Source: Streptomyces sp. NBC_00443
GTDB lineage: Bacteria; Actinomycetota; Actinomycetes; Streptomycetales; Streptomycetaceae
Assembly: GCF_036014175.1 (NCBI RefSeq)
Contig: NZ_CP107917.1
Span: forward strand, 5,580,001 to 5,644,000
DNA: 64,000 bases
Direction of reading: 5' to 3'
Of the stretch, positions 36,546 to 51,338 are shown one piece after another; position 1 is the stretch's first letter; each line of letters starts with the position of its first letter. The notes under the pieces are model-generated. The model saw only the letters and a program-made list of their open reading frames with translations, was not told the DNA's origin and did not search any database. The position numbers were made by a program, and so were the translations under genes.

Positions 36546-38015
36546 TCAAGCGGAGCGCGGGCCGCCGAACCAGCGCTGCAGGGCCTCCGTCAAACCGGCG
36601 GAGCCGTCCGTTCCGACCCACGCGATGTAGCCGTCGGGACGCACCAGCAGGTCGGCGGCCGGGGCGGCCGGGTCGGGCCGGGAGGCGGCGACGACGTCCA
36701 CGCGGCCGGCCCAGCCGGCGGCGGCCTCGGTGAGGGTGTCGCCGCCGCGCAGGTTCAGCAGGAGCGGGCGCCCGCGGGTGAGCAGTTCGTACGTGCTGCT
36801 CTTCTCGTCGCCGACCAGCAGCTCCTGGTCGGGCAGCCGGTGGCCGAGCAGCGGGTGGCCGCCCTCGCCCATGTCGTAGCCGATGTCCAGGCCGGTGACC
36901 AGGCCGACCAGGTGGCGGCGGACCGCCTCGATGCCGACCAGCTCGCCGAAGAGCCGGCGCAGCGGCTCCATCTCGGGGCCGCCGAGGTACAGGGAGCGCT
37001 GCACGAGGGTGTTGGCGATGATGCGGGCGCCGACCGGGTGGCGCTCGGTGTGGTAGGTGTCCAGCAGACCCTCGGGGGCGTGCCCGTTGAGCTCGGCCGC
37101 CAGCTTCCAGCCGAGGTTCACCACGTCGCCGACGCCGGCACTGATGCCCTGGGCGCCGATGGGCAGGTGGATGTGGGCGGCGTCACCCGCGAGGAAGACC
37201 CGGCCCTTGCGGTACTCGGCGGCCTGCCGGCTGCCGTCGGTGAAGTAGCTGGTCCACAGCGGCTTGTGACCGGTGATGTCCTCGCCGGTGACACGCTGGA
37301 AGGCGGCGGCGACCTCGGGGAAGGTGGGCGCCTCCTGGGTCGGGCGGACACCGGCGCCGCGCTCGAAGACGACGACGCGGGTGGCCTGCGGGCCGAGCGG
37401 GAGCACCACGACCATGCCGGACTCGCCGACCTCGCCGGTCGGACGGATGCGCAGCTCGTTGGTGGCGACGTCGGCCATCAGCATCTCGATGGTGGCGCTG
37501 GTGCCGGGGAAGTCGATGCCGGCCAGCTTGCGCACGGTGGAGCGGGCTCCGTCACAGCCGACCAGGTAGGCCGCGCGCAGTGTCTCGACGCCGTCGGCGG
37601 TGCCGACCTCGACGACGACACCCTGATCGTCCTGGGTCATGCCGACGACCTCGTGCCCGCGGCGGATCTCGGCGCCGAGCCCGGTCGCCCACTCCAGCAG
37701 AATGGCCTCGGTCCGCGACTGCGGAACACCACGGACGCCGAAATTGCCGCCCTCGACGATGCGATAGTCAATGGGCAGTCCACCGAAATGCCCGAAGGGT
37801 ATCGTCTCGAGTTGACCGAATTTCTCGAGAAGTCCGCGCTGACCGAACTCCTCGATGGTGCGGGCGGAAAACCCGAGCGCCCGGGACTGCTGCATGGGCT
37901 CCGCGAGGCGGTCGAGTACGACCACCGACCGTCCGGCCAGGCGGAGTTCACCGGCGAGCATGAGTCCGGAGGGTCCGGCCCCGGCGACAATCACGTCGGC
38001 ATGAAAATTATCCAT
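36546..38015 (-). CDS. Aromatic polyketide FAD monooxygenase (PgaE/JadH class), third copy
   Basis: 489 aa, class A flavoprotein hydroxylase. GAGPSGLMLAGELRL at 12-26 binds ADP of FAD, DG motif CDGARSTVRKLAG, and GDAAH in the C-terminal FAD site. The C-terminal thioredoxin-like tail ends LTEALQRWFG. Start ATG 38015 with GGGAGAGGAAAC. It is a close paralog of the 58303 enzyme (same GHFGG, RGVPQS and DTYHTERHPVGARI-like segments), so it is expected to oxygenate the angucyclinone skeleton. Its promoter carries YCTGAC repeats. It reads into the halogenase region after 133 bp. Confidence 0.92.
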   Translation of the reverse strand: MDNFHADVIVAGAGPSGLMLAGELRLAGRSVVVLDRLAEPMQQSRALGFSARTIEEFGQRGLLEKFGQLETIPFGHFGGLPIDYRIVEGGNFGVRGVPQSRTEAILLEWATGLGAEIRRGHEVVGMTQDDQGVVVEVGTADGVETLRAAYLVGCDGARSTVRKLAGIDFPGTSATIEMLMADVATNELRIRPTGEVGESGMVVVLPLGPQATRVVVFERGAGVRPTQEAPTFPEVAAAFQRVTGEDITGHKPLWTSYFTDGSRQAAEYRKGRVFLAGDAAHIHLPIGAQGISAGVGDVVNLGWKLAAELNGHAPEGLLDTYHTERHPVGARIIANTLVQRSLYLGGPEMEPLRRLFGELVGIEAVRRHLVGLVTGLDIGYDMGEGGHPLLGHRLPDQELLVGDEKSSTYELLTRGRPLLLNLRGGDTLTEAAAGWAGRVDVVAASRPDPAAPAADLLVRPDGYIAWVGTDGSAGLTEALQRWFGGPRSA

Positions 38016-38081
38016 GTTTCCTCTCCCAGTGGATTTTTCTCCAGTATTCCGGGGGAGTTGGGGAAGCTGAATGGCCGCAAG

Positions 38082-38128
38082 TACAGGTCTCTGACAAGTT
38101 TCGTCAGAGATTCTGCAGCTGCGTCAGG
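38082..38128 (-). promoter_or_regulatory. YCTGACR repeat operator before the third monooxygenase
   Basis: On the minus strand: CCTGACG, 20 bp later TCTGACG, then 21 bp later CCTGTAC. The first 27 bases match the 43.1-kb operator at 23 positions. On the plus strand 38090-38108 is also TCTGAC-N7-GTCAGA. It lies 70-110 bp before ATG 38015. Confidence 0.7.
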
Positions 38129-38142
38129 CGGTGGAAATACGC

Positions 38143-38173
38143 GAGGGCGCCGGAAGGAACTTCCGACGCCCTC
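38143..38173 (-). terminator. Terminator of the PPOX gene
   Basis: GAGGGCGCCGGAAG (38143-38156) pairs with 38160-38173 with one G-T pair; loop GAA. It lies 19 bp past the PPOX stop. Confidence 0.75.
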
Positions 38174-38191
38174 GGCCGGTTCGGACCCGGC

Positions 38192-38587
38192 TCAGAGCAG
38201 GCCCAGCACCCGGTCGACCTGGATCTCGATCACGACCAGGCCCGGCGGCTCCGGCGGCGGTGTCCAGTACCGCTTGGCGTACCGCCGTATGCCCTCCTGG
38301 ACCCGTGACGGGTCGTCGTGGACGGTGGCGGTGCCCTCCAGGGTGATCCAGCGGGGTCCCACCGTCTGGCAGAGGGAGGCCCGGGCGGCGGGCCCTGCCA
38401 GTACGTTCCTGGCCTTGCGCCGTGTCACCGCGGTCATGACCCGCGCCAGGCCCGCCTCCCCGTCCCAGGTGAACCGCACGGGCGTCACATGGGGCGAGCC
38501 GTCGGGGCGCAGCGTGGTGAAGGTGCACAGATGGTTGTCGGCGAGGAAGTCCTCGGCCGCGGGGGACAACCGTGGTGACGTCGGCAT
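38192..38587 (-). CDS. PPOX-class split-barrel flavin/F420 protein
   Basis: 131 aa, pyridoxamine-phosphate-oxidase-like barrel: AAEDFLADNHLCTFTTLRPDGSPHVTPVRFTWDG start, then RKARNVLAG and the late WITLEGTATVHDD strand. This size and pattern are typical of F420-dependent PPOX reductases, although FMN or haem members exist. It could reduce a quinone or an enone during tailoring. It lies 33 bp downstream of the MFS gene on the same strand, so it is probably cotranscribed with the pump. The role is inference. Confidence 0.8.
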   Translation of the reverse strand: MPTSPRLSPAAEDFLADNHLCTFTTLRPDGSPHVTPVRFTWDGEAGLARVMTAVTRRKARNVLAGPAARASLCQTVGPRWITLEGTATVHDDPSRVQEGIRRYAKRYWTPPPEPPGLVVIEIQVDRVLGLL

Positions 38588-38620
38588 GGCGGCTTTCCGA
38601 TCTATCGCGGGTTTCCGATC

Positions 38621-40111
38621 TCAGGCTTTGGCGGGAGCGTCGGCCGGCTGCTCCGATGCCCTGGTGAAGGGCAGCAGGAGCAGCGTGAGGAGCAGGCCGG
38701 CCACGGCGAAGCAGGCGCCCGCGAGGAACGCGTCGTGGAAGACCTCGGTGCGCGCCTGGGTCACCCGCGCGGGCACCCCGTCCGCCCACTCGGTCAGCTG
38801 CTCGACCTGGCGGAAGGCGTAGGTGGCGGCCACGGCGAGGCCGAGGGCGCCGCCGACCTCCTGCGCGGTGTTGATGAGCCCCGCGGACAGACCGGACTCG
38901 TCCTCCTGGGTGCCGGTGAACGCGGCGACCTGCACCGGCACGAAGGACAGGCCGAGACCGAGGCCGGAGATCAGGAAGGCGGGCAGCAGGTCCACGGCGT
39001 AGGAGGCGTCGGACGGGGCCCGCCACAGCAGGAACATGCCCACGCTGGTCAGCGTCAGGCCGACCATCAGCACCGGCTTGGCGGCGACCTTGGTCACCAG
39101 CTGGGAGGCGATACCGGCGCCGACCGCGACGATCACGGCGAGCGGGACGTAGGCCAGACCGGTCTTCAGGGCCGACCAGTTGAGGACCTGCTGCATGAAC
39201 AGGCTGGCGAAGAAGAACAGCGTGACGCAGGTGCCGAGCAGCAGGACGGCGACGACGTTGGAGGCCCGCAGCGACTTGCGCTTGAAGACGCCGAGCGGGA
39301 TCAGCGGCGCCTCGGCGCGGCGCTCGATCAGCAGGAACGTGATGAGCAGGACCGCGGAGAGGGCGAAGCCGCCGTAGACGCGGGCCATCGGGACGTCCGA
39401 GTCGTCGATCGTCTGGCCGAGGCTGAAGATCAGCAGCACGAGACCGGCGGTCAGCGTCACGGCACCGGCGACGTCGAAGGAGCTACGGCGTTCCGCGGCG
39501 CGGCTCTCGGCGACGATCTTCGGGGCGATCAGCGCGCAGACCAGGCCGATCGGCACGTTGATGAAGAAGATCCAGCGCCAGCCCGGACCGTCGGTGAGCA
39601 GACCGCCCAGGGTGACACCGGCGACGGCGGCGATACCGCTGAGCGCGCCCCAGGCACCGAGCGCCTTGTTGCGCTCGGCGCCCTCCGCGAAGTTGTTGGC
39701 GAGCAGGGACAGCGCGGCGGTCGCGATGAACGCGGCGCCGAGGCCCTGGGCGCCGCGCGCCACGATCAGCATGGCCGCGCTCTGCCCGAACCCGGCGAGC
39801 AGGGAGGACAGGGCGAAGAGGATCAGGCCGGTCTGCAGCATCCGGCGACGGCCGAAGGCGTCGGCCAGCCGGCCGGTCAGCAGCAGGAAGCCGCCGAGCA
39901 GCATGCCGTAGGTGGTGACGATGTACTGCAGGGACGTCTGGGAGATGTGCAGTTCGTCTTCGATGGTCGGCAGGGCCACGTTGACGATGGACACATCGAG
40001 GAAGGTCATGAAGCCGGCCAGGCAGAGGAACGCCAGGATGAGTCCCGGGCGGTGCGGCGGGGCCGATTCGTCGGTGTGGCGGGGAAGGCGCAGCGACTCT
40101 TGGGTCGACAT
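38621..40111 (-). CDS. MFS drug exporter, 14-helix (DHA2/EmrB) family
   Basis: 496 aa with about 14 helices. Motif A variant (GRLADAFGRRRML) follows helix 2, motif C region is ALGAWGALSGIAAVAGVTLGG, and LDVSIVNVALPTIE in helix 1 is a DHA2 hallmark. ATG 40111 with AGGAG at 4 nt. It is divergent from the HxlR repressor gene across a shared operator, the standard arrangement for a product-inducible efflux pump. Likely exports the cluster product and gives self-resistance. Confidence 0.9.
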   Translation of the reverse strand: MSTQESLRLPRHTDESAPPHRPGLILAFLCLAGFMTFLDVSIVNVALPTIEDELHISQTSLQYIVTTYGMLLGGFLLLTGRLADAFGRRRMLQTGLILFALSSLLAGFGQSAAMLIVARGAQGLGAAFIATAALSLLANNFAEGAERNKALGAWGALSGIAAVAGVTLGGLLTDGPGWRWIFFINVPIGLVCALIAPKIVAESRAAERRSSFDVAGAVTLTAGLVLLIFSLGQTIDDSDVPMARVYGGFALSAVLLITFLLIERRAEAPLIPLGVFKRKSLRASNVVAVLLLGTCVTLFFFASLFMQQVLNWSALKTGLAYVPLAVIVAVGAGIASQLVTKVAAKPVLMVGLTLTSVGMFLLWRAPSDASYAVDLLPAFLISGLGLGLSFVPVQVAAFTGTQEDESGLSAGLINTAQEVGGALGLAVAATYAFRQVEQLTEWADGVPARVTQARTEVFHDAFLAGACFAVAGLLLTLLLLPFTRASEQPADAPAKA

Positions 40112-40220
40112 GTCGCTCCTAGTGGAGGTGACGGAAGGGGTTCCGTAGGGACGGACATCCGGAGGGAAAGGACATGGCGCGAGGCCGGGAGCGGGAGCCG
40201 CTCACCGTCTTCCGGGAAGC

Positions 40221-40260
40221 TAGCATCCTGGGTAAAGTAGGTACCTAGAGGAAAGTGACT
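40221..40260. promoter_or_regulatory. HxlR-type operator, copy B (TAGGTACCTA)
   Basis: TAGCATCCT, then AGTAGGTACCTAGAGGAAAG and TGACT, with palindrome TAGGTACCTA at 40238-40247. It is in the 165-bp divergent gap between the MFS pump and the HxlR gene, 17 bp before the regulator's start. 37/40 identical to 31320-31359. Confidence 0.82.
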
Positions 40261-40276
40261 TCCTGGGAGGGTCCGA

Positions 40277-40696
40277 ATGGGCAGCACTGGCGCCATGGGC
40301 AGCACCACCACGCGTGGCGGACAGGTCGACTCGGAGCTGGCGTGCCCGGTCTCCCCGGTGGTCGACATCGTCTTCAGCCGCTGGACGACACCGATCCTGT
40401 GGACGCTGCACGAGTTCGGCCGGCAGCGTTTCGTCGAGCTCCAGCGCAACATCCGCACCATCACGCCGAAGGTCCTCACCCAGCGGCTGCGTCAGATGGA
40501 GCGTGACGGCCTGGTCGTGCGGACGTACTACCCCGAGGTGCCGCCCCGGGTCGAGTACGAGATCAGCGAGCTGGGCCGCAGCCTGGCGCCGATCTTCGCC
40601 CACCTCGCCGAGTGGTCCACGGAGAACCTCAAGAAGGTGGAGCGGGCCAGGCGGGAGTTCGACACGGCAGCCGAACCGACGTCCGTACCGCGCTGA
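40277..40696 (+). CDS. HxlR-family winged-helix regulator
   Basis: 139 aa, start ATG 40277 with GGAGGG. HxlR core: CPVSPVVDIVFSRWTTPILWTLHEFG, then ITPKVLTQRLRQMERDGLVVRTYYPEVPPRVEYEIS. The single Cys just before the first helix (ELACPVS) is at the place of the redox-sensing Cys of YodB/QorR-type quinone sensors. It should bind TAGGTACCTA as a dimer and be released by a quinone or the polyketide, inducing both the MFS pump and the distant NmrA oxidoreductase. Confidence 0.9.
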   Translation: MGSTGAMGSTTTRGGQVDSELACPVSPVVDIVFSRWTTPILWTLHEFGRQRFVELQRNIRTITPKVLTQRLRQMERDGLVVRTYYPEVPPRVEYEISELGRSLAPIFAHLAEWSTENLKKVERARREFDTAAEPTSVPR

Positions 40697-40733
40697 CCTG
40701 CGCCCAGGGCTGCGGCTGACTCCGGGCCGGCTG

Positions 40734-41285
40734 CTAACCCCGGGCCGGCGCAGGGACATCGGTGTCGAGGACGCGCATCGCGCCCTTGTAGAAGACCAGC
40801 GGGTCGGCCTCCTCGGTCGACGTGCCCAGGGCGGTGACCTCGCCGAGCACGATGGCGTGGTCGCCGCCGTCGTACTCGTCGGCGAGACGGCACTGCAGGA
40901 AGGCCAGCGCCTCGGTGAGGACCGGCAGTCCGCTCGTGGAGCGGTGGTGCGGGACCTCCGCCAGCCGCGCCGACTCGCGGCCCGCGAACTTCCAGGCGAG
41001 GCCTTCCTGACTGCGCGTCAGGAAGTTGACCACGAAGCCGCCGGACTTCTGCAGGGCGGGGCGCAGCCGCGACTGCTTGTGCAGGCAGAACAGCACCAGC
41101 GGCGGCTCCAGTGAGACGGACGTGAAGGAGTTCACCGTGGTGGCGGCGCCGTCCTCGGGGCCTCCGGTGGTGATGACGGTGACGCCGGTGGCGAAGTTGC
41201 CGCACACCGTGCGCAACGCGCGGCCGTCGACCGGCGGTTGCGGCAGATGTCGGCCGTGCTGGGACAACGGCTGGACGGGTATCAC
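40734..41285 (-). CDS. NAD(P)H:flavin reductase (HpaC/JadY-like)
   Basis: 183 aa, two-component flavin reductase domain: CGNFATGVTVITTGG, ATTVNSFTSVSLEPPLVLFCL, SGGFVVNFL and HAIVLGEVTAL. GTG 41285, 12 bp behind the antiporter stop, so it ends a three-gene operon (SnoaL-like, antiporter, reductase). It hands free FMNH2 or FADH2 to partner oxygenases. Candidates here are the halogenase and the divergent ABM oxygenase. In jadomycin, JadY serves JadG in this way (known). Confidence 0.9.
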   Translation of the reverse strand: MIPVQPLSQHGRHLPQPPVDGRALRTVCGNFATGVTVITTGGPEDGAATTVNSFTSVSLEPPLVLFCLHKQSRLRPALQKSGGFVVNFLTRSQEGLAWKFAGRESARLAEVPHHRSTSGLPVLTEALAFLQCRLADEYDGGDHAIVLGEVTALGTSTEEADPLVFYKGAMRVLDTDVPAPARG

Positions 41286-41297
41286 TGAGCCCCCTCG

Positions 41298-42608
41298 TCA
41301 GGTGCGCGGCGCGGTCGCGTCCGCGACGGGTGTACGTGCCTTCTGGGTCACTCCGGCCGTGAGGTGCTCGCGCCGGGACAGCAGCGGTGCCGCCATCGCC
41401 GTCGTCACGAGGGCCATGATCACCAGCATGGTGAACATCCGGCCGTCGAGCACTCCGAGGCTCACGGCGGCGTTGAGGATGATGAGTTCGGTCAGGCCAC
41501 GGGTGTTCATCAGCACGCCCAGGTCCTTGGACTCACGCCAGGACAGGCCGGCCAGCCGGGCCGGGATGATCGCGCCGAGCAGTTTGCCCGTGCAGGCCAC
41601 GGCGATGACCAGGGCCAGTGACAGAGAGTCGGTCGCGGTCAGGGAGCCGAGGTCGACGCCGAGGCCGGTGACGATGAAGAACACCGGCAGCAGCACGACG
41701 CTGACGTCGTCCAGCGGCCGGCGCAGGTTCGCCGCGAGCACCCTCCTGGGCTCGCGCGGCATGACGAAACCGAACAGGAACGCGCCGAAGATCTGGTGGA
41801 TGCCGATCCACGAGGTCAGCCACGACGAGGCGAACACGCCCGCGCACAGCACCGCGAGCAGCGCGCTCCAGCGCTCCATGGCGGCCCACCGCCACACCAG
41901 CCGGGCCACCAGCGGCCGTACCACCATGATCATCAACGCCACATAGACCACGCTCAGCGTCCCGATCCGGGCCAGGTCCGCATAGTCACCGTCCGAGCTG
42001 ACCAGCGCCGACACATACGCCAGCAGACACCAGGCGAGGATGTCGTCGATCGCGGCGCTGGCCAGTGACAGGGCGCCGACCCGGGTGTCCATCAGTTTGT
42101 TCTCGGTGAGGATCCGTGCCAGTACGGGGAACGCCGTCACGGACATCGCGGTGCCCATGAAGGTGGCGAACGCGAGGAAGGAGATGTGCTTGCCGGCCAC
42201 GGTGTCGTGGTGCGGATACAGCACGACCGCCGCGGCGACGCCCAGCCCGAAGGCCAGCACGATCGACGACACCGAGACGCCGGCCGCCAGCCGCGCGTGC
42301 GGCCGTATCAGCCGCTTCTCGAACTCCCAGCCGACCACGAACATGAACAGGACCAGGCCGACCTGGGAGACCGCCGAAAGCAACGGCCGTACGTCGTCCG
42401 GGAACAGACGGTCCGTCAGGTTCCCGGGAAATAGGCCGAGCAGACTCGGGCCGAGCACGATGCCGGCGGTGATCTCGCCGATCACCTTCGGCTGGCCCAG
42501 CTTCCGCGCGAGTGCCCCGAGTGCGGCGCCGACCAGCAGGATCACACCGATGCCGAGCAGCATGGTCGCGACCTGTTGCTCCTGGGTCCCGGCCGCCAGC
42601 ACGGTCAC
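41298..42608 (-). CDS. Cation/proton antiporter, CPA2 (KefB/NapA) family
   Basis: 436 aa, about 12 helices. GTG 42608 overlaps the SnoaL-like stop by four bases. Conserved core: GEITAGIVLGPSLLG, SAAIDDILAWCLLA carrying the ion-binding Asp pair of the family, and NTRGLTELIILN. Such antiporters recur in angucycline and other aromatic polyketide clusters and may aid export or pH balance; their role there is not settled. Coupled translation with a presumed biosynthetic gene argues that it belongs to the pathway. Confidence 0.9.
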   Translation of the reverse strand: MTVLAAGTQEQQVATMLLGIGVILLVGAALGALARKLGQPKVIGEITAGIVLGPSLLGLFPGNLTDRLFPDDVRPLLSAVSQVGLVLFMFVVGWEFEKRLIRPHARLAAGVSVSSIVLAFGLGVAAAVVLYPHHDTVAGKHISFLAFATFMGTAMSVTAFPVLARILTENKLMDTRVGALSLASAAIDDILAWCLLAYVSALVSSDGDYADLARIGTLSVVYVALMIMVVRPLVARLVWRWAAMERWSALLAVLCAGVFASSWLTSWIGIHQIFGAFLFGFVMPREPRRVLAANLRRPLDDVSVVLLPVFFIVTGLGVDLGSLTATDSLSLALVIAVACTGKLLGAIIPARLAGLSWRESKDLGVLMNTRGLTELIILNAAVSLGVLDGRMFTMLVIMALVTTAMAAPLLSRREHLTAGVTQKARTPVADATAPRT

Positions 42609-43048
42609 CGGGCGTCCCTCGGCCGGGGCGGGCTGCCGGTCGACCAGACCAGCTGGAACGACAGCTCCGTCAGACGCCAGCCGTCCTCGGCGTGCCGGGC
42701 CGCACCGTGGACGAGGGTGCCGGAGACGAACAGCGGATCGCCGGGCGCATCCGGATGGTGTACGTGGGTCGAGACCAGGTTGGCGCGCAGCACCGCCCGC
42801 TTCTCGCCCGTGAGGTCCACCACCGCCGGGGAGTTGAGATGCTGGGTGCGCGCGAACGCGTCGAGTGCCTGCCGGTGCCAGGCGGCGAGCCCCTCGATGC
42901 CCTCGTGCCGGGCCATCGGGAACTCGACGCGGGCGTCGTCGCTGAACAGCGCGCGGGCCCAAGCGTCGTCGAGTTTGTCCTCGTCGAGGCCCAACAGATA
43001 TCGGTCCAGCAAGGCGCTGATTTCGGCTGCTGACGTGACGGAATTCAT
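42605..43048 (-). CDS. SnoaL-like / NTF2-fold protein
   Basis: 147 aa from ATG 43048, in frame to TGA at 42605. NTF2-like cone fold: ISALLDRYLLGLDEDKLDDAWARALFSDDARVEFP, then LHGAARHAEDGWRLTELSFQLVW-like ending. Members include SnoaL-type cyclases, hydroxylase helpers and JadX-like proteins of unclear role. It is divergent from the ABM oxygenase over a 246-bp promoter region with four direct repeats, and overlaps the antiporter gene. Cyclase or helper function undecided. Confidence 0.82.
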   Translation of the reverse strand: MNSVTSAAEISALLDRYLLGLDEDKLDDAWARALFSDDARVEFPMARHEGIEGLAAWHRQALDAFARTQHLNSPAVVDLTGEKRAVLRANLVSTHVHHPDAPGDPLFVSGTLVHGAARHAEDGWRLTELSFQLVWSTGSPPRPRDAR

Positions 43049-43100
43049 TACCCGAGCATCGCGCGATGGCCAATGGGCGCCCAAGGGCACTTGTCGAAGA

Positions 43101-43167
43101 CCTGACGTAGCTGCGGAAGATCTGACGCTGACGGAAAAGACCTGACAATCCGCGCGGAGTCCTGAAC
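43101..43167 (+). promoter_or_regulatory. Four YCTGAC direct repeats at exact 20-bp period
   Basis: CCTGACG at 43101, TCTGACG at 43121, CCTGACA at 43141 and CCTGAAC at 43161. An extra GCTGACG is at 43127. They lie between the divergent SnoaL operon and ABM gene and point to the ABM gene. Equal to two helical turns, the pattern is what a head-to-tail OmpR-type dimer pair would bind. Confidence 0.78.
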
Positions 43168-43294
43168 AGAGCCCTCTTCAGCAGGAGTTGATGACTTGTC
43201 ATGCTGGTCGGGAAGCACGTTCCACTGAGCCGGAAATTCGAGTTCTGCTTCTTTCGTCAACCTTTCATCACCCGATCTACCGGAAGAGAAGAGA

Positions 43295-43987
43295 ATGCCG
43301 AAGATCGCAGCCGATGGTAACAACCTGACCGTCCTCAACCTGTTCTCGACCGACTCCGCCGAGAAGCAGGACAGCCTGCTCGCCGCGATGCGCGAGATCG
43401 TCGACGCCGCCGCCTACGACGGCTGGATCTCCAGCACCGTGCACAGCGGGCAGACCAAGTTCGGCACCGCCAACTTCATCCAGTGGCGCTCCACCGAGGA
43501 CCTGGAGGCCCGGTACGCCGGCGAGGAGTTCAAGCACCGCACCCTGCCGCTCTTCGGTGAGATCACCACCGCGATCCGGCTCCTGCAGAACGAGGCGGTC
43601 TTCACCCAGTCGAAGCCGGGTGCCGGGGACACCGAGATCGGGCCGGAGCGCGAGGACTACACGGTCATCGACCTGTACGGCGTCGCCGAGAAGCACCAGG
43701 ACGACCTGGTCGACACGCTCGGTGCTGCCCAGGACTGGCTGCAGAAGGTCCCGGGGTACCGCAGCCACACGGTGCTGCGCGGTCTGCGGGGCCGTGGCAT
43801 CGAGGGCAAGTGGGTCGTCGTCTACGCGCAGTGGGACAGCAAGGAGGCCTACGACGCCTTCCGTGAGCAGCCCGCGGCGCAGCGGTCGGCGGAGCGGCAG
43901 AAGATCGACGCCAAGCTGGACGCGCTGGCTATTTGGCGGGACTCCAACACCTACCGCGTGGTGCACACCCGGTCGGCGGGCGAGTGA
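43295..43987 (+). CDS. Two-domain ABM-type oxygenase (possible JadG/AlpJ-like ring-B oxygenase)
   Basis: 230 aa made of two antibiotic-biosynthesis-monooxygenase (dimeric alpha-beta barrel) units, about 8-105 and 118-225. Both show the ABM pattern: a strand (LTVLNLFSTDSAEKQDSLLAAM; YTVIDLYGVAEKHQDDLVDTL), then a substrate-pocket helix and GTANFIQWRS or KWVVVYAQWDS strands. Single-domain relatives are cofactor-free anthrone oxygenases. Two-domain enzymes of this length in angucycline clusters (JadG, GilOII, AlpJ) use reduced flavin to open ring B. The divergent operon encodes a flavin reductase, which fits that reading, but I cannot align them here. ATG 43295 with GAAGAGAAGAGA upstream. Confidence 0.75.
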   Translation: MPKIAADGNNLTVLNLFSTDSAEKQDSLLAAMREIVDAAAYDGWISSTVHSGQTKFGTANFIQWRSTEDLEARYAGEEFKHRTLPLFGEITTAIRLLQNEAVFTQSKPGAGDTEIGPEREDYTVIDLYGVAEKHQDDLVDTLGAAQDWLQKVPGYRSHTVLRGLRGRGIEGKWVVVYAQWDSKEAYDAFREQPAAQRSAERQKIDAKLDALAIWRDSNTYRVVHTRSAGE

Positions 43988-44051
43988 CGGTCCGGGCCGT
44001 CGACCGGGAGGTGCCTGGCGCCGCCCGGACGCGGCCCGGGGTGGAGTGCAC

Positions 44052-44726
44052 ATGCGCGTACTCGTGATCGATCCGGATGACGGGACCGCCGAGCCTCTGG
44101 TCTGCCGCCTGGTGCGCAACGGCCATCAGGTCCGGCGGGCCCGCACCGGGCGGGCGGCCCTCCAGGCGTGGGAGCAGGCCGAAGTCGTTCTGCTCGACCT
44201 GGAGTTGCCCGACCTCGACGGTCTTCAGGTGTGCGCCGAGATCCGGGCCCGGGGCACCACCCCGCTGATCGCCTTCACCAGCCGGGACACCGAGCTGGAC
44301 CGGGTGCTCAGTCTGCGCTCGGGTGCGGACGACTGTCTGGTGAAGCCGTACGGGTTCCGGGAGCTGATCGCCCGGATGAACGCGGTGACCCGGCGCGTCG
44401 CCACCGGCGGGGGTCCGGCCGGCGTGTCCTGCGGGGCCCTGCGGCTGGACCCCGGGACGCGTGAGGCATGGGTGGGGGAGCAGTCCCTGGAGCTGACCCG
44501 CAAGGAGTTCGACATCCTGCTGCTGCTGGCCTCGGCACCGGAGACGGTGCTCTCGCGCCGGGACCTGATCGCCGGGGTCTGGGCGGACGAGTGGGCCATC
44601 TCCACCCGCACGGTCGACACCCACGTCAGCGCCCTGCGCGCCAAGCTGGGCGAGGGCTGGATCACCACGGTCCGGGGTGTCGGCTACCGCCTGGAGGAAA
44701 CGTCACCCTCCGCCCCGCTTCGGTGA
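44052..44726 (+). CDS. OmpR-family response regulator, JadR1-like (regulator 1)
   Basis: 224 aa. Receiver 1-115 with VLLDLELPDLDG (phospho-acceptor Asp) and the switch Lys in CLVKPYG. Winged-helix DNA-binding domain 130-215 with LTRKEFDILLLLASAPETVLSR and TRTVDTHVSALRAKLGE. The acidic pocket reads IDPDDG instead of the usual DD or ED at that exact place, so phosphorylation may not control it. No histidine kinase is adjacent. Close paralog of the 48481 regulator. In jadomycin and related clusters such atypical regulators switch on the core operon and may bind end products (known for JadR1). Confidence 0.88.
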   Translation: MRVLVIDPDDGTAEPLVCRLVRNGHQVRRARTGRAALQAWEQAEVVLLDLELPDLDGLQVCAEIRARGTTPLIAFTSRDTELDRVLSLRSGADDCLVKPYGFRELIARMNAVTRRVATGGGPAGVSCGALRLDPGTREAWVGEQSLELTRKEFDILLLLASAPETVLSRRDLIAGVWADEWAISTRTVDTHVSALRAKLGEGWITTVRGVGYRLEETSPSAPLR

Positions 44727-44767
44727 TGTGCGGTGCCGGTTTTCCGGGGCCCGTCGCGGACCGCCGG

Positions 44768-45583
44768 TCAGGCGGCGCTGCCCTCCCCCTCCGGGGCAGC
44801 GCTCCCTTCCCGTACCGGGGCGGGGGCGGTGTCGGGCTCCCAGCCCGGGCCGGCCTCCGGCGCGGAGCCGTCGTCGGCCGCGGTGTCGTACTCCTCGTCG
44901 GCCGGTGCGTCCTCCCCCTCCAGTGCCGCATCGCGCGATGCGAGCAGGGACACGGCTCGGTCGGGGGTCAGTTCCAGCGTCGGGAGGATCTGCGGCATCG
45001 CGACGGTCGGCAGGAGGTGGCGGAACATGGAGATCACCCGGCGGGTCAAGTCCTTGCGCTGGCACAGCACCTGGGACGTCCACTGGATGCCGGTGAAGGA
45101 CCCGGACAGCAACTCCGCCGTCTCCGCCGGATCCACGTGCGGCAGCAACTCGCCGCGGTCGCGCGCCTCGACGAGCAGTCCGGTGAGCCGGTCCGCCCAG
45201 GACTGGAACGGCCTGCCGTGAAAGGGATTGCCGCTCTCGGAGCTCTCGGCACTCTCGCTCCACTGGTCCATGGCGAGTCCCACGCTGGCCCGGGTCAGCG
45301 GGTCGTGCTGCAGCTGGTGCGCGAACAACAGGCCCTGGTCGGCGAGTTCCTGCAGCTTCGTGCGCTGCGGAGGCAACGGGCCGAGCTCCAGCTGCGCCGC
45401 TATCACCCCGAGGGCAAGGTCCTCCTTGGAGGTGAAGTGGAAGTACAGCGCCCCCTTGGTGACACCGGCCCGCGCGATGATCTCCGTGATGGTGGCGGTG
45501 CTGTAGCCCCGCTCGTCGAACACCTCGGCCGCCGCCAGCAGGATCGACTTCCGGGTCTGGATGGCTCTTGCTTGACGTGCCAT
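44768..45583 (-). CDS. TetR regulator, gamma-butyrolactone receptor type
   Basis: 271 aa. N-terminal helix-turn-helix is ArpA/ScbR-like: RAIQTRKSILLAAAEVFDERGY, TITEIIARAGVTKGALYFHF, TSKEDLA. Central ligand domain contains WTSQVLCQRKDLTRRV. After about residue 220 there is an acidic Glu/Asp/Ala/Pro tail of about 50 residues that classic receptors lack. ATG 45583 (MARQARA). Divergent from the AfsA-type gene, the usual receptor-synthase pairing. Expected to repress target promoters until a butyrolactone binds. YCTGAC repeats sit 20 bp before its start. Confidence 0.9.
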   Translation of the reverse strand: MARQARAIQTRKSILLAAAEVFDERGYSTATITEIIARAGVTKGALYFHFTSKEDLALGVIAAQLELGPLPPQRTKLQELADQGLLFAHQLQHDPLTRASVGLAMDQWSESAESSESGNPFHGRPFQSWADRLTGLLVEARDRGELLPHVDPAETAELLSGSFTGIQWTSQVLCQRKDLTRRVISMFRHLLPTVAMPQILPTLELTPDRAVSLLASRDAALEGEDAPADEEYDTAADDGSAPEAGPGWEPDTAPAPVREGSAAPEGEGSAA

Positions 45584-45602
45584 GCGTCCGTGCCTGTTTC
45601 TA

Positions 45603-45620
45603 TGTCAGAGCTTGGTCAGG
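45603..45620 (-). promoter_or_regulatory. YCTGACR repeats at 11-bp period before the receptor gene
   Basis: On the minus strand CCTGACC, four bases, TCTGACA, reading toward ATG 45583. The location in the short divergent gap puts it over the receptor promoter. Confidence 0.62.
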
Positions 45621-45702
45621 TTCCCCCGCAAAGAGAACCGGACTGCCAGTCTTTTGTCGAGAGGGGAACGATCCCCTCATTTATCGACTCAGGGGGCAAT
45701 CC

Positions 45703-46797
45703 ATGCCTGATGGCGCGATATCTGTAGTCGACCGATTTGTTGAGTCTCGTACGGGTCTGGACCCGGTGCAAGAGCGCCCCGAACCCGCTGACGGGGACAG
45801 CACGGCCCGCCACACCGGTCCGCTCGCCGGGCAGGCCGCACCGATCCACTCGGAAGAGCCCAGCGCACCGCCCGCATACCGGACCGACTCCCCGGTTCTG
45901 ATTCCCGACGGCCGGGCCACCGCCGAGCTGTGCCATCGCCCGGACCCCGAGGACCGGTTCCCCGTCGAGTGGCTGCGCCTGACCGAGCACCGGTTCCTCG
46001 TCTCGGTGAACTGGCCCTCCGCACACCGCTTCTTCGCCCCGTTGCCCGGCGGGCGTCAGGATCCGCTGCTCGTCGCCGAGACCACCCGGCAGGCGACGAT
46101 GATGCTGGCCCACGCCGAGTTCGGAGTGCCGATCGGCGACCAGTTCCTGATGCGGGAGCTCGGATACCGGGTCGAGACACCGGAGTTCACCGTGGCGGGC
46201 GCCTCGGGCGCGATCGACGTCGTGGTCGAGTGCACCGATGTCCAGCTACGCGCCGGGCGACTCGTCGGCATGCGGGTCGACCTGCGCTTCCAGCGCCACG
46301 GCCGGCTGCTCGCCACCAGCATGGGCATCCTGGGCTGCACCTCGTCCCGCGTCTACCGCCGACTGCGCGGCGAGCGGATGGCCGCCACGGGTCGCGCACT
46401 CCCGCCGCTGCCCGCCGTGGCGCCCCGCGAGACCGGCCGCGGCGACCACAAGGACGTCGTCCTCGCCCCTTCCCGGCATCGCCCCGGCTGGCGGCTCCGC
46501 CTGGACACCACGCGCCCCACACTCTTCGCCCGCCCCAACGACCACGTTCCCGGCATGGTGCTGCTCGAAGCCGCCCGCCAGGCCGCCAACGTCCTGACGC
46601 CCGGGCACGATTTCCACCCCGCCTCGATGCGGATCGCCTTCCACAAGTACTGCGAACTGACCGAGCCCTGCTGGATCCTGGCCCGCCCCGACCGGGCCGC
46701 GGAGCAGGGCACCGTGATGCATGTGCAGGGCCTCCAGCAGGACGAACCCGTCTTCACCGTGACCCTGGGCGACGGCGCGACGAGGGACGGCGGCTGA
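45703..46797 (+). CDS. AfsA-type gamma-butyrolactone biosynthesis protein
   Basis: 364 aa from ATG 45703, with AGGGGGC at good spacing. A divergent N-terminal stretch of about 65 residues precedes two AfsA hot-dog repeats: first HRFLVSVNWPSAHRFF with AETTRQATMMLAH, second RPTLFARPNDHVPGMVLLEAARQAANVL. AfsA joins dihydroxyacetone phosphate to a beta-ketoacyl-ACP, the committed step to A-factor-like signals. GAGGGG-AACGAT-CCCCTC at 45661-45678 is an inverted repeat just upstream. Together with the two receptor-like TetR genes this makes a cluster-dedicated signalling circuit. No separate reductase gene for the lactone is seen in the window. Confidence 0.9.
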   Translation: MPDGAISVVDRFVESRTGLDPVQERPEPADGDSTARHTGPLAGQAAPIHSEEPSAPPAYRTDSPVLIPDGRATAELCHRPDPEDRFPVEWLRLTEHRFLVSVNWPSAHRFFAPLPGGRQDPLLVAETTRQATMMLAHAEFGVPIGDQFLMRELGYRVETPEFTVAGASGAIDVVVECTDVQLRAGRLVGMRVDLRFQRHGRLLATSMGILGCTSSRVYRRLRGERMAATGRALPPLPAVAPRETGRGDHKDVVLAPSRHRPGWRLRLDTTRPTLFARPNDHVPGMVLLEAARQAANVLTPGHDFHPASMRIAFHKYCELTEPCWILARPDRAAEQGTVMHVQGLQQDEPVFTVTLGDGATRDGG

Positions 46798-46824
46798 GCC
46801 GGCACGCCCTGGCGGCGGTGCTGG

Positions 46825-47103
46825 GGGTTCCGGCGGATTTCGCGGGTCGTCCTGTGCGTCCTGGGTGGCGGGCATGCGTTCGCGTTGGCCTGTGTCGTGG
46901 GGGCCTACGGCCGTGGCCGGTGCGGGTGGTGTTGTCGGCGGCTCCTGTGCGGTGGCTGGGTTTCGGCGAGTTCGCCGGTCGTCCGGTCCCGTCCTGGGTG
47001 GCGGGCATGCGTTCGCTTTGGCGTGTGTGGTGGGGGGCGTACGGCCGCGGCCCGTTTGCGTACTGCCGCCGGCAACTCCCGTGCGGTGGCCGGGTTCCGG
47101 CGG
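46825..47103 (+). repeat. Degenerate tandem repeat, unit about 133 bp
   Basis: GGGTTCCGGCGG recurs at 46825, 46958 (as GGGTTTCGGCGA) and 47092, periods 133 and 134. Within each unit CTGGGTGGCGGGCATGCGTT recurs (46861 and 46997 regions). It fills most of the 406-bp gap between the AfsA gene and the next TetR gene. Several frames stay open through it in both directions, but none has a good ribosome site, and I see no gene. Confidence 0.7.
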
Positions 47104-47203
47104 TCCGTCGCTGACGGCACCGCCAGGATGCGAAGGCGCGGGCACCCCAACTCACCGCCGCTCCGACGGCCGGTCGCGGACCCGGCACCGGGCCCGCGTC
47201 ACC

Positions 47204-47926
47204 TCACCCCGTGGTCGCAGCCTCCGCGTCGACCTCTTCCTCCGTGGCGTAGGGCAGGTAACGCGACACGGCAACCGCGTGGTCGACCACGTCCGGTGTG
47301 CCGCCGGGGTTCAGCGCGCCGAGCAGGCTCGGCGCGGCGAGCCCCGGCAGGAAGCCCTGCCAGAACCCCGTGAAGGCCAGCCGGGTCCGGTCGCCCTCGC
47401 CCCCCTTTATCAGTACTCCTATACCGGTCGTGGCGGCGACGATCGCACAGGTCAGCGCCGGCAGCTGGACCTGAGCGGCGACCCCGCCCTCCTGGCGCGC
47501 GCGGTCCAGCAGGCGCTGCACGCAGGCGTGCCACGCGTGGATGAACTGCTCCCGCCCCTTGCGGGACCGGTCGTTGTCCAGCCGCAGCCCGGCCCGCGAC
47601 ACCACGTCCCAGGACAGCAACTGGCTCAGTGTGTGCGAGATGTCGGTGAGGGCCTGCAGCGGCTCGGAGTTCTTCTCGTACGCGAGGCGCGCGGCGCGCC
47701 ACAGGATGCCGCGCGCCTCGCTCACGACCGCTTGGGCCAGGTCCTCCTTGTTCGCGAAGTGGAAGTGCAGCGCGCCCGTGCTCATGTTGGCCCGCGCGCT
47801 GATGTCGGAGAGCCTGGCCGAGGCATAGTCCTCGCGGTCGAAGACCTCCGCCGCCGACTTCAGCATGAGCCGGCGGGTGCGGATCGCCCTCTCCTGTTGT
47901 AGTCCCACCTGCCTGAATCCTTTCAT
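47204..47926 (-). CDS. TetR regulator, (pseudo) gamma-butyrolactone receptor type, second copy
   Basis: 240 aa from ATG 47926; GTG 47908 would give GLQQERAIRTRR, closer to the family start, with AAAGGA upstream. HTH: RAIRTRRLMLKSAAEVFDREDY, LSDISARANMSTGALHFHF, ANKEDLA. It has STGALHFHF where true receptors have TKGALYFHF, which fits the JadR2-like pseudo-receptors that bind antibiotics rather than butyrolactones. Its start overlaps closely with an ARE-like site (47940-47957), so it probably represses itself. Confidence 0.88.
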   Translation of the reverse strand: MKGFRQVGLQQERAIRTRRLMLKSAAEVFDREDYASARLSDISARANMSTGALHFHFANKEDLAQAVVSEARGILWRAARLAYEKNSEPLQALTDISHTLSQLLSWDVVSRAGLRLDNDRSRKGREQFIHAWHACVQRLLDRARQEGGVAAQVQLPALTCAIVAATTGIGVLIKGGEGDRTRLAFTGFWQGFLPGLAAPSLLGALNPGGTPDVVDHAVAVSRYLPYATEEEVDAEAATTG

Positions 47927-47937
47927 CCCGCCGTCCC

Positions 47938-47960
47938 GGAAACGGACTTGAAGGTTTGTT
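47938..47960. promoter_or_regulatory. ARE-like operator AAACG-N8-GGTTT at the second TetR gene
   Basis: AAACG GACTTGAA GGTTT then GTT, at 47940-47957. Same half-site spacing as the site at 48407. 14 bp before ATG 47926. Confidence 0.6.
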
Positions 47961-48401
47961 CATGGGGTGCGGGTGTCCGAGTGACGGGAGCGTCGGTCCG
48001 GCTGCGGCTCTCGTTTCTATCGACACACCGTCAGTACTGCCCAGAAGATCACACTTTCCCACCTCATGACCAGGGCGAGGGAGAAGTGGAAGCAGGGAAT
48101 CAGCCGACCGAGAACATCCTGGACGGTCTACCACCGCCTCCGGGGATGTGCAATGCGTCGGGGCGAGGCCGCCCTCGGTAGTCGATCTACGGGTGAGAGG
48201 CCCGGTTGTTGAGACCCGGAACAAACCGCAGTCGCCGTCAGTGATTAATTTCGCGTGACCAAGGGGCGAGTTTTGACCAGTTTCAAGATTCAGAATCACG
48301 ATCTCGGTTACGTTTCGCGGCGGAATTGATCATTCATGTCCTGGCAACTCCGGCAAAAGTGGCATCAGTTGTCACGTACGGTGAGTTTACCGAGTTTTTT
48401 T
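47961..48401. other. Gene-free leader between divergent regulators
   Basis: About 440 bp with locally lower GC, especially 48236-48401. No start with a ribosome site and codon pattern of this genome is found. A short frame around 48087 ends after about 30 codons and is not supported. The gap must hold the promoter of the second TetR gene. Confidence 0.5.
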
Positions 48402-48431
48402 TTGACAAACCGAGAGGTAGGTTTTTAGGCT
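48402..48431 (+). promoter_or_regulatory. Promoter of regulator 2 overlapped by an ARE-like operator
   Basis: A consensus -35 TTGACA (48402-48407), 17-18 bp spacer, -10 TTAGGC or TAGGCT (48425-48431). The spacer is AAACC GAGAGGTA GGTTT (48407-48424), a perfect 5-bp inverted repeat extended as ACAAACC...GGTTTTT. Butyrolactone receptors bind such sites between -35 and -10. It follows a T9 tract. Confidence 0.72.
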
Positions 48432-48480
48432 CGACAAGCCAAGGCGCTCGAGCGGGAACTACATGTTCAGGGGGAGAGCA

Positions 48481-49212
48481 GTGAGCCAACGCGCAACGAG
48501 CAGCACTCTGGAGTATCGAAAGCCCATCACCTCGCAGATCCGGAAGCCGTCGACGAACTGGCGGGTCCTGGTGGTCGAGAACAACACCGGCGACATGGAG
48601 GCCCTCGCCGCCGGACTGCGGCGGCACGGCCACCACGTCGAGGGGGTCGGCACGGGCAACGCGGCTCTGCAGGCCTACCAGGTGTCGGACATCGTTCTGC
48701 TGGACCTCGAACTACCCGACCTGGACGGTCTGGAGGTGTGCCGCTCCATCCGTTCCCTGAGCGACGTCCCGCTCATAGCGGTCACGGGGTGGGGGACGGA
48801 ACTGGACCGTGTCCTCGGTCTCCAGGCCGGCGCGGACGACTACCTCGTCAAGCCCTACGGCTTCCGGGAACTGATGGCCCGGATGGACGCCGTCATGCGT
48901 CGCTCGCGTCCGCACGTGCAGATCGAGCAGGTCGTCTCGCGTGGGCCGTTGTGCATCGACGCCGCCTCGCGCGAGGTGAGTCTGCACGGTCAGGTCGTGG
49001 AGGTCACCCGCAAGGAGTTCGATCTGCTCTATCTGCTCGCCTCTCATCCGGAGACGGTGATCTCGCGCAAGCGCATCATGCAGCAGGTCTGGGGCGGGTC
49101 CTGGTCCCGTCGCACCGTGGACACCCATGTCAGCAGTCTCCGCGGCAAGTTGGGGGGTAGCGACTGGATCGTCACCGTTCGCGGAGTGGGGTTCCGCTTC
49201 GGTACTGGCTGA
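48481..49212 (+). CDS. Atypical OmpR-family response regulator, JadR1-like (regulator 2)
   Basis: 243 aa from GTG 48481, with GGGGGAGA at 5 nt. A 27-residue polar leader precedes the receiver, which has VVENNTGD where a phosphorylated receiver needs two acids, although the acceptor region LLDLELPDLDG and LVKPYG are kept. DNA-binding domain: VTRKEFDLLYLLASHPETVISR, RRTVDTHVSSLRGKLGG. The lost acidic pair is the mark of JadR1-class atypical regulators, which respond to ligands not phosphate. It stands directly before the core operon, like jadR1 before jadJ, and is its probable activator. A terminator follows. Confidence 0.9.
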   Translation: MSQRATSSTLEYRKPITSQIRKPSTNWRVLVVENNTGDMEALAAGLRRHGHHVEGVGTGNAALQAYQVSDIVLLDLELPDLDGLEVCRSIRSLSDVPLIAVTGWGTELDRVLGLQAGADDYLVKPYGFRELMARMDAVMRRSRPHVQIEQVVSRGPLCIDAASREVSLHGQVVEVTRKEFDLLYLLASHPETVISRKRIMQQVWGGSWSRRTVDTHVSSLRGKLGGSDWIVTVRGVGFRFGTG

Positions 49213-49255
49213 TCTCGCACCCGGCGCGATGTCACCACATCGCCGCCGACTTCGA

Positions 49256-49290
49256 AAAGGGCGGGCTCCTGACGGGGGAGCCCGCCCTTT
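49256..49290 (+). terminator. Strong terminator after regulator 2
   Basis: AAAGGGCGGGCTCC (49256-49269) pairs with 49277-49290 over 14 bp, ending in TTT. It insulates the regulator from the core operon. Confidence 0.88.
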
Positions 49291-49355
49291 CGCATGCCGT
49301 TGCCCTTTTGTGGGCCGGTCAACTGTTCTGCCGCCGTGAGTGGTTCGACGGGGCT

Positions 49356-49384
49356 TCTGACAATTCCCTGACACTTGCCTGGCG
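49356..49384 (+). promoter_or_regulatory. Three direct repeats at 11-bp period before the core operon
   Basis: TCTGACA (49356), CCTGACA (49367) and CCTGGCG (49378) have exact 11-bp spacing, in the 353-bp gap before the acyl-CoA carboxylase gene. The pattern is that of tandem OmpR-type or SARP sites. Nothing else but the terminator is evident in this gap. Confidence 0.75.
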
Positions 49385-49565
49385 CTGCGCCAACAAAGCC
49401 GTATCCCAGCTGAGGATCTGGTCCGAAGGCTTAATGGGCGGCTGTTGAAAGCGCCGAGGTCACGCACCGAGTATGGACAGGTATTCGGCGCCCGCCTGGG
49501 AGTGGAATTACCCCGGCCGCGCTTGATCATCCCAGAATTCCTGCCGATTGAGGAGGGGGCCAGTC

Positions 49566-51338
49566 GTGCGCAAGGTGCTCATCGCCAACCGTGGCGAAAT
49601 CGCTGTCCGCGTGGCCCGGGCCTGCCGGGACGCCGGGATCGCGAGCGTGGCCGTCTACGCGGATCCGGACCGTGACGCTCTGCATGTCCGCGCCGCGGAT
49701 GAGGCGTTCGCCCTGGGCGGTGACACCCCGGCAAGCAGCTATCTGGACATCGGCAAGGTCCTGAACGCGGCCCGCGAGTCGGGCGCGGACGCCATCCACC
49801 CCGGGTACGGCTTCCTGTCGGAGAACGCCGACTTCGCCCAGGCCGTCCTGGACGCCGGCCTGATCTGGATCGGCCCGCCCCCGCAGGCCATCCGCGACCT
49901 CGGTGACAAGGTCGCCGCCCGGCACATCGCCCAGCGTGCCGGCGCCCCGCTCGTCGCCGGCACACCCGACCCGGTCTCCGGCGCCGACGAAGTCGTCGCG
50001 TTCGCCGAACAGCACGGCCTGCCGATCGCGATCAAGGCCGCCTTCGGCGGCGGCGGACGCGGCCTGAAAGTCGCCCGCACCCTCGAAGAGGTCCCCGAGC
50101 TCTACGACTCCGCAGTCCGTGAAGCGGTCGCGGCGTTCGGGCGCGGCGAGTGCTTCGTCGAGCGTTACCTCGACAAGCCCCGCCACGTCGAGACCCAGTG
50201 CCTGGCCGACAGCCACGGCAACGTCGTCGTGGTCTCCACGCGTGACTGCTCGCTGCAGCGCCGCCACCAGAAACTGGTCGAGGAGGCCCCCGCCCCGTTC
50301 CTGTCCGAGGCGCAGACCGCCCAGCTGTACTCCGCGTCCAAGGCCATCCTCAAGGAGGCCGGCTACATCGGCGCCGGCACGGTCGAGTTCCTCGTCGGCA
50401 TGGACGGCACGATCTCCTTCCTCGAGGTCAACACCCGCCTCCAGGTCGAGCACCCGGTCACCGAGGAAGTCACCGGCATCGACCTCGTGCGCGAGATGTT
50501 CCGCATCGCCGACGGCGAGGAACTCGGCTACGACGACCCGCAGCTGCGCGGCCACTCCTTCGAGTTCCGCATCAACGGCGAGGACCCCGGCCGGGGCTTC
50601 CTCCCGGCACCGGGCACGGTCACCACGTTCGCCCCGCCCACCGGCCCCGGCGTCCGCCTGGACGCCGGCGTCGAGTCCGGCAGCGTGATCGGCCCCGCCT
50701 GGGACTCCCTGCTCGCCAAGCTGATCGTCACCGGCGCCACCCGCCAGCAGGCTTTGCAGCGCGCCGCCCGCGCGCTGGCCGAGTTCCACGTCGAGGGCAT
50801 GGCCACCGCGATCCCGTTCCACCGCGCGGTCGTCAAGGACCCCGCCTTCGCCCCGGAACTGACCGGCTCCAGCGACCCCTTCACCGTCCACACCCGCTGG
50901 ATCGAGACCGAGTTCGCCAACGACATCAAGCCCTTCGCCGCCCCCGCCGAGTCCGAGAAGGGGAACGAGCCGGATCGTGACACCGTCGTCGTCGAGGTCG
51001 GCGGACGGCGTCTGGAGGTCTCCCTTCCGTCCTCGCTCGGCATGAGCCTGGCCCGCACCGGCCTCGCCGCCGGAGCCAAGCCGAAACGGCGGACGGCGCG
51101 CAGCTCGGGACCTGCCGTCTCCGGCGACACCCTCGCCTCGCCGATGCAGGGCACTGTCGTGAAGGTCGCGATCGAGGAAGGCCAGGAGGTCAAGGAAGGC
51201 GACCTCATCGTCGTACTCGAAGCGATGAAGATGGAACAGCCCCTCACAGCGCACAAGTCCGGCACCGTCAAGGATCTGTCGGCCGCGGTCGGCGCCTCCC
51301 TCACCTCCGGTGCGGCCATCTGCGAGATCAAGGACTGA
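49566..51338 (+). CDS. Acyl-CoA carboxylase alpha chain (biotin carboxylase plus biotin carrier)
   Basis: 590 aa from GTG 49566 after GAGGAGG. Biotin carboxylase domain 1-450: [26 protein letters not shown]-grasp [12 protein letters not shown], and [14 protein letters not shown]. The C-terminal carrier has the biotin site EAMKMEQP with Lys555. With the beta chain at 63.1 kb it makes malonyl-CoA, the only extender for this polyketide. A cluster copy lifts precursor supply, as JadJ does in jadomycin. No epsilon-subunit-like gene is recognised. First gene of the core operon. Confidence 0.95.

Follow-up and report, generated by a model that had tools for sequence, protein, structure and literature searches.

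In the tandem operators of PhoB and OmpR in Escherichia coli, winged-helix dimers lie head to tail on half-sites of 10–11 bp, and the OmpR sites repeat at about 20 bp; both regulators are controlled by phosphorylation, and their word differs from the one described here. Several angucycline clusters reportedly depend on activators of the JadR1 type (PMC8910723). JadR1 of the jadomycin cluster of Streptomyces venezuelae is reported to turn on jadJ–V directly (PMC9303295); the jadJ promoter, jadJp, is described as silent in a jadR1 deletion, and jadomycins as inhibiting the binding of JadR1 to it (PMC4875748). Aur1P of the auricin cluster is likewise an atypical response regulator with footprinted repeats, described as TCCCTTG at 24 bp (PMC8306873), and the operators described for SARP-type activators (ActII-ORF4, DnrI, PapR2) are direct heptamers on an 11-bp pitch. 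Here we analyze a 64,000-nucleotide stretch of the genome of Streptomyces sp. NBC_00443 (the window; G000:C1:5580001–5644000 of 9.45 Mb), in which direct repeats of a short word, YTGAC, precede four genes of an angucycline-type antibiotic cluster. From sequence comparison we consider it probable that the cluster's own pair of JadR1-type atypical response regulators, ARR1 and ARR2, which have an OmpR fold, use these repeats as operators and would bind them as head-to-tail dimers.

The locus resembles the jadomycin system in that an OmpR-type atypical regulator lies beside a carboxylase/polyketide synthase (PKS) operon, which JadR1 reportedly activates. In genome G015, whose gene order we take to be that of the jadomycin cluster, TTGAC-11-CTGAC-11-CTGGC stands before the carboxylase gene. 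The window differs in carrying a second such regulator and in having repeats at 20 bp before two oxygenase genes. The Aur1P word is another than the one found here, a comparison made with its published description only; CCCTTG does lie on the third repeat unit of loci L018 and L019, and a search of the collected loci for TCCCTTG at 23–25 bp gave one place in L140 and loose matches in L018 and L019. The SARP operators have the same 11-bp pitch, but the cluster has no SARP gene and the PapR2 word corresponds to the opposite strand. We found no CTGAC-type operator for JadR1-type regulators in the open literature; subscription papers lay outside this search, and such an operator may be in print. 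What we describe belongs to a known kind of system and offers a testable rule for the operators of a widespread class of antibiotic switches.

Direct repeats before four genes of the cluster

An earlier sequence-only reading of the window had placed YCTGACR repeats at 38.1, 43.1, 45.6 and 49.36 kb. We found repeats at the claimed spacings in all four places; with genes as called here, all are intergenic and run 5' to 3' toward the claimed target gene. The word proper was slightly too strict, as 8 of the 12 units fit it while CCTGTAC, CCTGAAC, CCTGACC and CCTGGCG deviate. The core of the repeat is YTGAC. We refer to each series as a ladder and to its units as rungs.

The target at 38.1 kb is the third FAD monooxygenase gene, MO3 (36546–38015, minus strand), an FAD aromatic-ring hydroxylase with Pfam domains FAD_binding_3 and Rng_hyd_C. 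Its ladder (38081–38128, minus strand) consists of CCTGACG (38128–38122), TCTGACG (38108–38102), a weak CTTGTC (38098–38093) and CCTGTAC (38087–38081). The heptamers are 20 and 21 bp apart, and the core-to-core steps become 20, 10 and 11 bp with the weak unit counted. The second ladder (43089–43167, plus strand) precedes the gene of an oxygenase with a Pfam ABM domain (ABM; 43295–43987, plus strand). It starts with a weak ACTTGTC at 43089 and continues with CCTGACG (43101), TCTGACG (43121), CCTGACA (43141) and CCTGAAC (43161), at steps of 20, 20 and 20 bp. Direct comparison confirmed that the 38.1 and 43.1 kb copies have 23 of 27 bases in common. An alternative longer start (43202) of the Na/H-exchanger open reading frame would take in the 43.1 kb site; in relatives this stretch carries insertions and deletions, and the exchanger start is kept at about 43046.

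The other two sites have an 11-bp step. Before the gene of TetR_A, a receptor-like TetR-family regulator (44768–45583, minus strand; Pfam TetR_N), there is a single pair (45603–45620, minus strand) of CCTGACC (45620–45614) and TCTGACA (45609–45603). The biotin carboxylase gene (49548–51338, plus strand; Pfam Biotin_carb and CPSase_L_D2), the first gene of the PKS operon, is preceded by a three-rung ladder (49356–49384, plus strand) of TCTGACA (49356), CCTGACA (49367) and CCTGGCG (49378), with steps of 11 and 11 bp.

Spacing in the window and in the genome

As a single word, YCTGACR shows no enrichment in the window, with 37 copies observed and 42.9 expected. When pairs were scored at spacings of 8–45 bp with a matrix built from these same sites, five lay at 20 bp and at most two at every other spacing, the two at 11 bp being those already in the set. 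Two further pairs were set aside: one at 20 bp (23545, minus strand), outside the set, because it points toward a gene end, and one at 11 bp (31682, minus strand), which sits inside a gene.

Across the 9.45-Mb genome, YCTGACR pairs at 20–21 bp occur seven times, three of them in the window. At exactly 20 bp there are four pairs, three in the window (binomial P = 1.2e-6), or two of three when overlapping pairs are merged (binomial P = 1.4e-4). Outside the window, three of the four 20–21-bp pairs fall within called genes and one sits where two convergent genes meet, at a gene 3' end. The genome has seven YCTGAC pairs at 11 bp, two of them in the window (binomial P = 9e-4). The expectation that spaced repeats would concentrate in the cluster was thus borne out clearly for the 20-bp class (3 of 4) and weakly for the 11-bp class (2 of 7).

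Conservation and promoter register

The nearest named relatives of the window's ABM gene are from Streptomyces. A scan with ABM proteins gave 24 named loci; L058, L060, L061 and L072 are the same records as G001, G216, G061 and G370 and add no evidence. The ABM rungs stand at 20, 20 and 20 bp in seven loci (L058–L063, L074), at 20, 20 and 21 bp in two (L071, L072) and at 22, 19 and 21 bp in two (L068, L069), and are partial or degenerate in six (L064–L067, L070, L073). In L074, the ABM protein is 67% identical and the spacers have diverged, yet the 20-bp steps persist. Rungs are absent from the remaining seven loci (L075–L081), where ABM is 53–63% identical and the stretch examined has no match to ARR1 or ARR2. 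Comparison of homologous clusters, which the sequence-only reading had proposed as a check, showed that all four sites are kept in close relatives.

We aligned the MO3 promoter of the window with those of 17 loci. All 18 have TTGTC or TTTTC 11 bp upstream of the final rung, which follows the strong rung at 21 bp in 10 promoters and at 20 bp in the other 8. From the start of the final rung's core to a −10-like hexamer (AATACT or GATACT) the distance is 38 bp in all 18, and TTCAGC or another hexamer starting with TT lies 23 bp before that hexamer, leaving a 17-bp spacer. The putative MO3 core promoter in the window (38043–38071, minus strand) accordingly comprises TTCAGC (38071–38066), a 17-bp spacer and AATACT (38048–38043). 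The corresponding ABM element (43177–43205, plus strand), with TTCAGC at 43177, a 17-bp spacer and CATGCT at 43200, has the same register, the last rung being 38 bp from the −10-like hexamer; at both promoters 9 nt separate the end of the last heptamer from TTCAGC. Among 18 ABM loci, a list that omits the ladderless L075–L081 and uses hexamer forms picked by eye from the alignment, this distance is 38 bp in seven and 39 bp in eight, with L065, L066 and L073 unmeasured. These hexamers are probably the −35 and −10 elements of the MO3 and ABM promoters.

A search of the genus with ARR1 matched 137 of 392 genomes at an E value of 1e-60 or better. In four genomes besides its own, in which ARR1 is 88–98% identical, TCTGAC-N5-YCTGACA beyond the ARR1 gene is kept in all four. 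As a held-out test, a matrix of the window sites was applied to seven regions between ARR1-type and carboxylase genes, with 300 shuffles each. A three-rung 11-bp ladder that none of the 300 shuffles equaled was present in five (L045, L046, L047, L051 and L055), or in three of five without the near-duplicates L047 and L051. The same element thus occurs between regulator and carboxylase genes in other clusters. A second block, CTGAC-N6-CTGAA, was seen downstream of the ladder before the carboxylase gene in L045, L046, L047 and L051, and also in L018/L019.

Of eight aligned rows, the window and six relatives have the receptor-gene pair in identical form, and L072 has lost it. The pair lies 20–37 bp before the TetR_A start codon, unlike the MO3 and ABM sites with their presumed activating position, and so near that it would be unsuited to ordinary activation; repression is more likely.

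Half-sites common to both spacings

We aligned 83 strong units from the ABM and MO3 promoters of 14 loci, which are homologous and hence not independent. Upstream of the strong unit there is a pyrimidine at −11 in 64 of 83, T at −10 in 57, G at −9 in 49 and C at −7 in 53. The T at −10 is the telling position in this G+C-rich DNA (1.05 bits); G at −9 amounts to 0.20 bits. Strong CTGAC units have a weak YTGYC 11 bp upstream. In our reading, the 20-bp class consists of weak–strong pairs with an 11-bp step that recur at 20-bp intervals, and adjoining strong rungs make up the 11-bp class. This refines the suggested one- and two-turn spacing: the two turns of the 20-bp step are not empty, since a weak half-site lies within them, 11 bp above the strong unit.

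The candidate regulators and their neighborhoods

ARR1 (48463–49212, plus strand) and ARR2 (44055–44693, plus strand; 56% identical to ARR1) both have Pfam Response_reg and Trans_reg_C matches, that is, a receiver and an OmpR-type winged-helix domain. The acidic pair of the phosphorylation pocket, E-D in RegX3, is E-N in ARR1 and D-P in ARR2, and the Asp, Thr and Lys are kept. We assume that these pocket residues have their familiar roles in phosphorylation, and both proteins appear to have lost residues needed for it. Together with domain content and gene order, the lost acidic residue suggests the JadR1-type label for both. The two share RTVDTHVSxLRxKL in the presumed recognition helix, in which six positions do not vary among the 63 regulators aligned, a set that covers both the ARR1 and the ARR2 type.

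We examined the neighborhoods of 73 regulator loci, reduced to 49 by dropping 24 near-duplicates, and of 40 SARP loci, reduced to 39 by dropping one, with genes called by a crude codon-composition rule. At 11 bp, the 49 regulator neighborhoods hold 23 intergenic pairs of YTGAC; the remaining 23 spacings between 7 and 30 bp average 2.65. Such a pair occurs in 21 of 49 regulator loci, in 4 of 40 control stretches (4 pairs) and in 4 of 39 SARP loci (7 pairs), giving by-locus P values of 0.0007 and 0.0008 for regulator loci versus control and SARP loci, respectively. Per non-genic base, the contrast with control stretches gives P = 1e-4.

The jadomycin-like genome G015 has 51 YTGAC-11-YTGAC pairs (12 for the reversed word), three of which lie within 1.3 kb around the ARR1-type gene; this clustering has P = 8e-8, with the interval set by the matches themselves. 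In the jadomycin-like cluster L046, two more TTGAC pairs at 11 bp lie at about 9949 and about 10063 on the minus strand, between the TetR_B-type and ARR1-type genes, the former placed inside a gene by the crude caller. Both would fit the autoregulation reported for JadR1.

Weighing the alternatives

That the repeats form a regulon motif for the two OmpR-type regulators of the cluster, the central proposal of the sequence-only reading, is the best-supported explanation: they are conserved, keep a constant register with promoter-like hexamers and, in other genomes, are over-represented around members of the family. The repeats themselves are real, and most likely serve as operators of JadR1-type regulators. 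Several observations weigh against this. Five of the seven 11-bp pairs lie elsewhere in the genome, outside the cluster, three of them before called genes. Intergenic 11-bp YTGAC pairs are lacking in 28 of the 49 regulator neighborhoods, the contrast of regulator with SARP neighborhoods per non-genic base reaches only P = 0.06, and the raw count with genes included peaks also at 36 bp (25 pairs; 11 for the reversed word). Three-rung 11-bp ladders occur in 308 of 392 genus genomes, often away from JadR1-type regulators (the first 20 genomes, G000–G019, give 61 matches versus 10 for the reversed word); we rejected such a ladder as a cluster-only marker, being this widespread and partly made up of 11-bp minisatellites. 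Among the held-out regions, L044 (12 of 300 shuffles as good) and L057 (9 of 300) have no standout ladder, and the rungs of L045 and L047 are degenerate (CCGAC, CTGAA, CGGAC). The footprint of Aur1P, a regulator of the same type, consists of the other word at the 24-bp distance given above (PMC8306873). A JadR1-protected region is also reported in the chloramphenicol locus, near cmlI and upstream of cmlJ (PMC4875748); we could not match it to a ladder, and none was present at the four checked of five AurF-type loci of G015, the candidates for cmlI.

A SARP-type activator encoded elsewhere could in principle read the repeats. SARPs also have an OmpR-like winged helix and use heptamers on an 11-bp pitch, described as having 4-bp spacers and lying near the −35 element, and GTCAGSS, the consensus of the SARP PapR2, reads SSCTGAC on the other strand (PMC7040171). 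Yet we found no SARP gene in or near the cluster, the nearest BTAD match lying about 336 kb from the window, and intergenic 11-bp YTGAC pairs are rarer near SARP genes than near JadR1-type genes by locus, if less clearly per non-genic base. In the SARP-type layout heptamers at 11 bp end about 8 bp before the −10 element; the 11-bp pitch is present at 49.36 and 45.6 kb, and the cores of the last MO3 and ABM rungs lie 38–39 bp before the putative −10-like hexamers. We regard a SARP reader as improbable. Still less probable is a reading of the MO3 element as the site of a dimeric repressor, such as a TetR or HxlR protein of the cluster, on the inverted repeat TCTCTGAC-N7-GTCAGAGA (38088–38110). 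The arms are perfect over 8 bp within the MO3 ladder, and the cluster offers two TetR genes and one HxlR gene as candidates. Across the 18 promoters, however, the distance between the arms varies by one base, and L060, L064, L070, L071 and L074 have changes in the right arm. The 11-bp step leading from TTGTC or TTTTC to the final rung, by contrast, holds in all 18. At 43.1, 45.6 and 49.36 kb, the search for inverted repeats reported none with CTGAC/GTCAG arms. Chance or neutral sequence, common by descent only, would account for the lack of enrichment of the single heptamer and for 11-bp pairs elsewhere, but is scarcely credible given that the steps stay constant although the spacers have diverged, and do so on either strand and ahead of genes that are unrelated.

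A refinement, compatible with JadR1-type operators, is that ARR1 reads the 11-bp carboxylase ladder and ARR2 the 20-bp ABM and MO3 ladders. The 11-bp carboxylase ladder occurs in L045, L046, L047, L051 and L055, which have no ABM match within the 17 kb examined, and the ARR2 gene follows ABM in all nine named loci with a 20/20/20–21 ladder. On the other side, the recognition-helix motif is common to both regulators, the 11-bp unit is present in both classes of site, and L068 and L069 have four rungs at 22, 19 and 21 bp with no ARR2 match in the stretch examined (that of L068 ends soon after ABM). This division of labor is a serious possibility that falls just short of probable.

Proposed mechanism

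In the reading that we prefer, operators of the two JadR1-type regulators, the binding unit would be two half-sites in head-to-tail order with an 11-bp step, YTGNC-N6-YTGAC, each such pair taking one ARR dimer; here we infer binding by ARR1 or ARR2, the sign of regulation and the transcript starts. At MO3 and ABM, weak–strong pairs every 20 bp would carry a stack of dimers that ends just above the −35-like hexamer and could recruit RNA polymerase. Three 11-bp rungs may do the same job at the carboxylase gene. At the receptor gene, a single pair stands where the core promoter is expected, would block it and more probably represses; alternatively, it could act on the divergent AfsA-type gene.

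Leaning only slightly to the affirmative, we would extend this to a genus-wide operator grammar for JadR1-type regulators, YTGAC-N6-YTGAC with an 11-bp pitch toward the gene, set by the near-invariant helix, with some clusters stacking weak–strong dimers at 20 bp. Intergenic 20-bp YTGAC pairs near other regulators of JadR1 type were not enriched (4, vs 7 in control stretches). If the grammar is true, targets of JadR1-type regulators throughout the genomes with ARR1 relatives could be predicted from sequence, and two paralogues within one cluster would compete for the same sites. The word and its spacing rule would allow target promoters to be predicted and silent clusters to be switched on, and site sharing by ARR1 and ARR2 becomes a directly testable question.

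Other features of the cluster and genome

The type II polyketide cluster in the window encodes the biotin carboxylase, a ketosynthase, a chain length factor, an acyl carrier protein, a ketoreductase-like SDR protein and several FAD oxygenases. In addition to the ABM-domain oxygenase, it has the two TetR regulators, an AfsA-type gene, the HxlR gene and the two OmpR-type regulators. The adjoining AfsA-type gene suggests that TetR_A is a gamma-butyrolactone receptor. Between these two genes there is a perfect palindrome, GACTGGCAGTC (45641–45651), which six close relatives have either unaltered or with a single change at its center; it is likely a TetR operator. A perfect 14-bp inverted repeat (49256–49290, plus strand) forms a hairpin between ARR1 and the carboxylase ladder and is a possible terminator of ARR1.

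Elsewhere in the genome, YCTGAC pairs at 11 bp were seen before genes matching NicO (L223), a thermolysin-type propeptide motif (L224) and an SMR (small multidrug-resistance) pump (L225), which are possible outside targets. An 11-bp minisatellite of CTGACAGCGCA/CTGACACCGCA units (L113; G000:C1:5295996–5296066), directly after an MFS-like gene, mimics a ladder in scans. Another recurring ladder, of TTGACCA units at 11 bp ending in TTGGC, lies at G000:C1:2022043–2022069, with similar ones in G211, G333, G255 and G243, and possibly marks another regulon.

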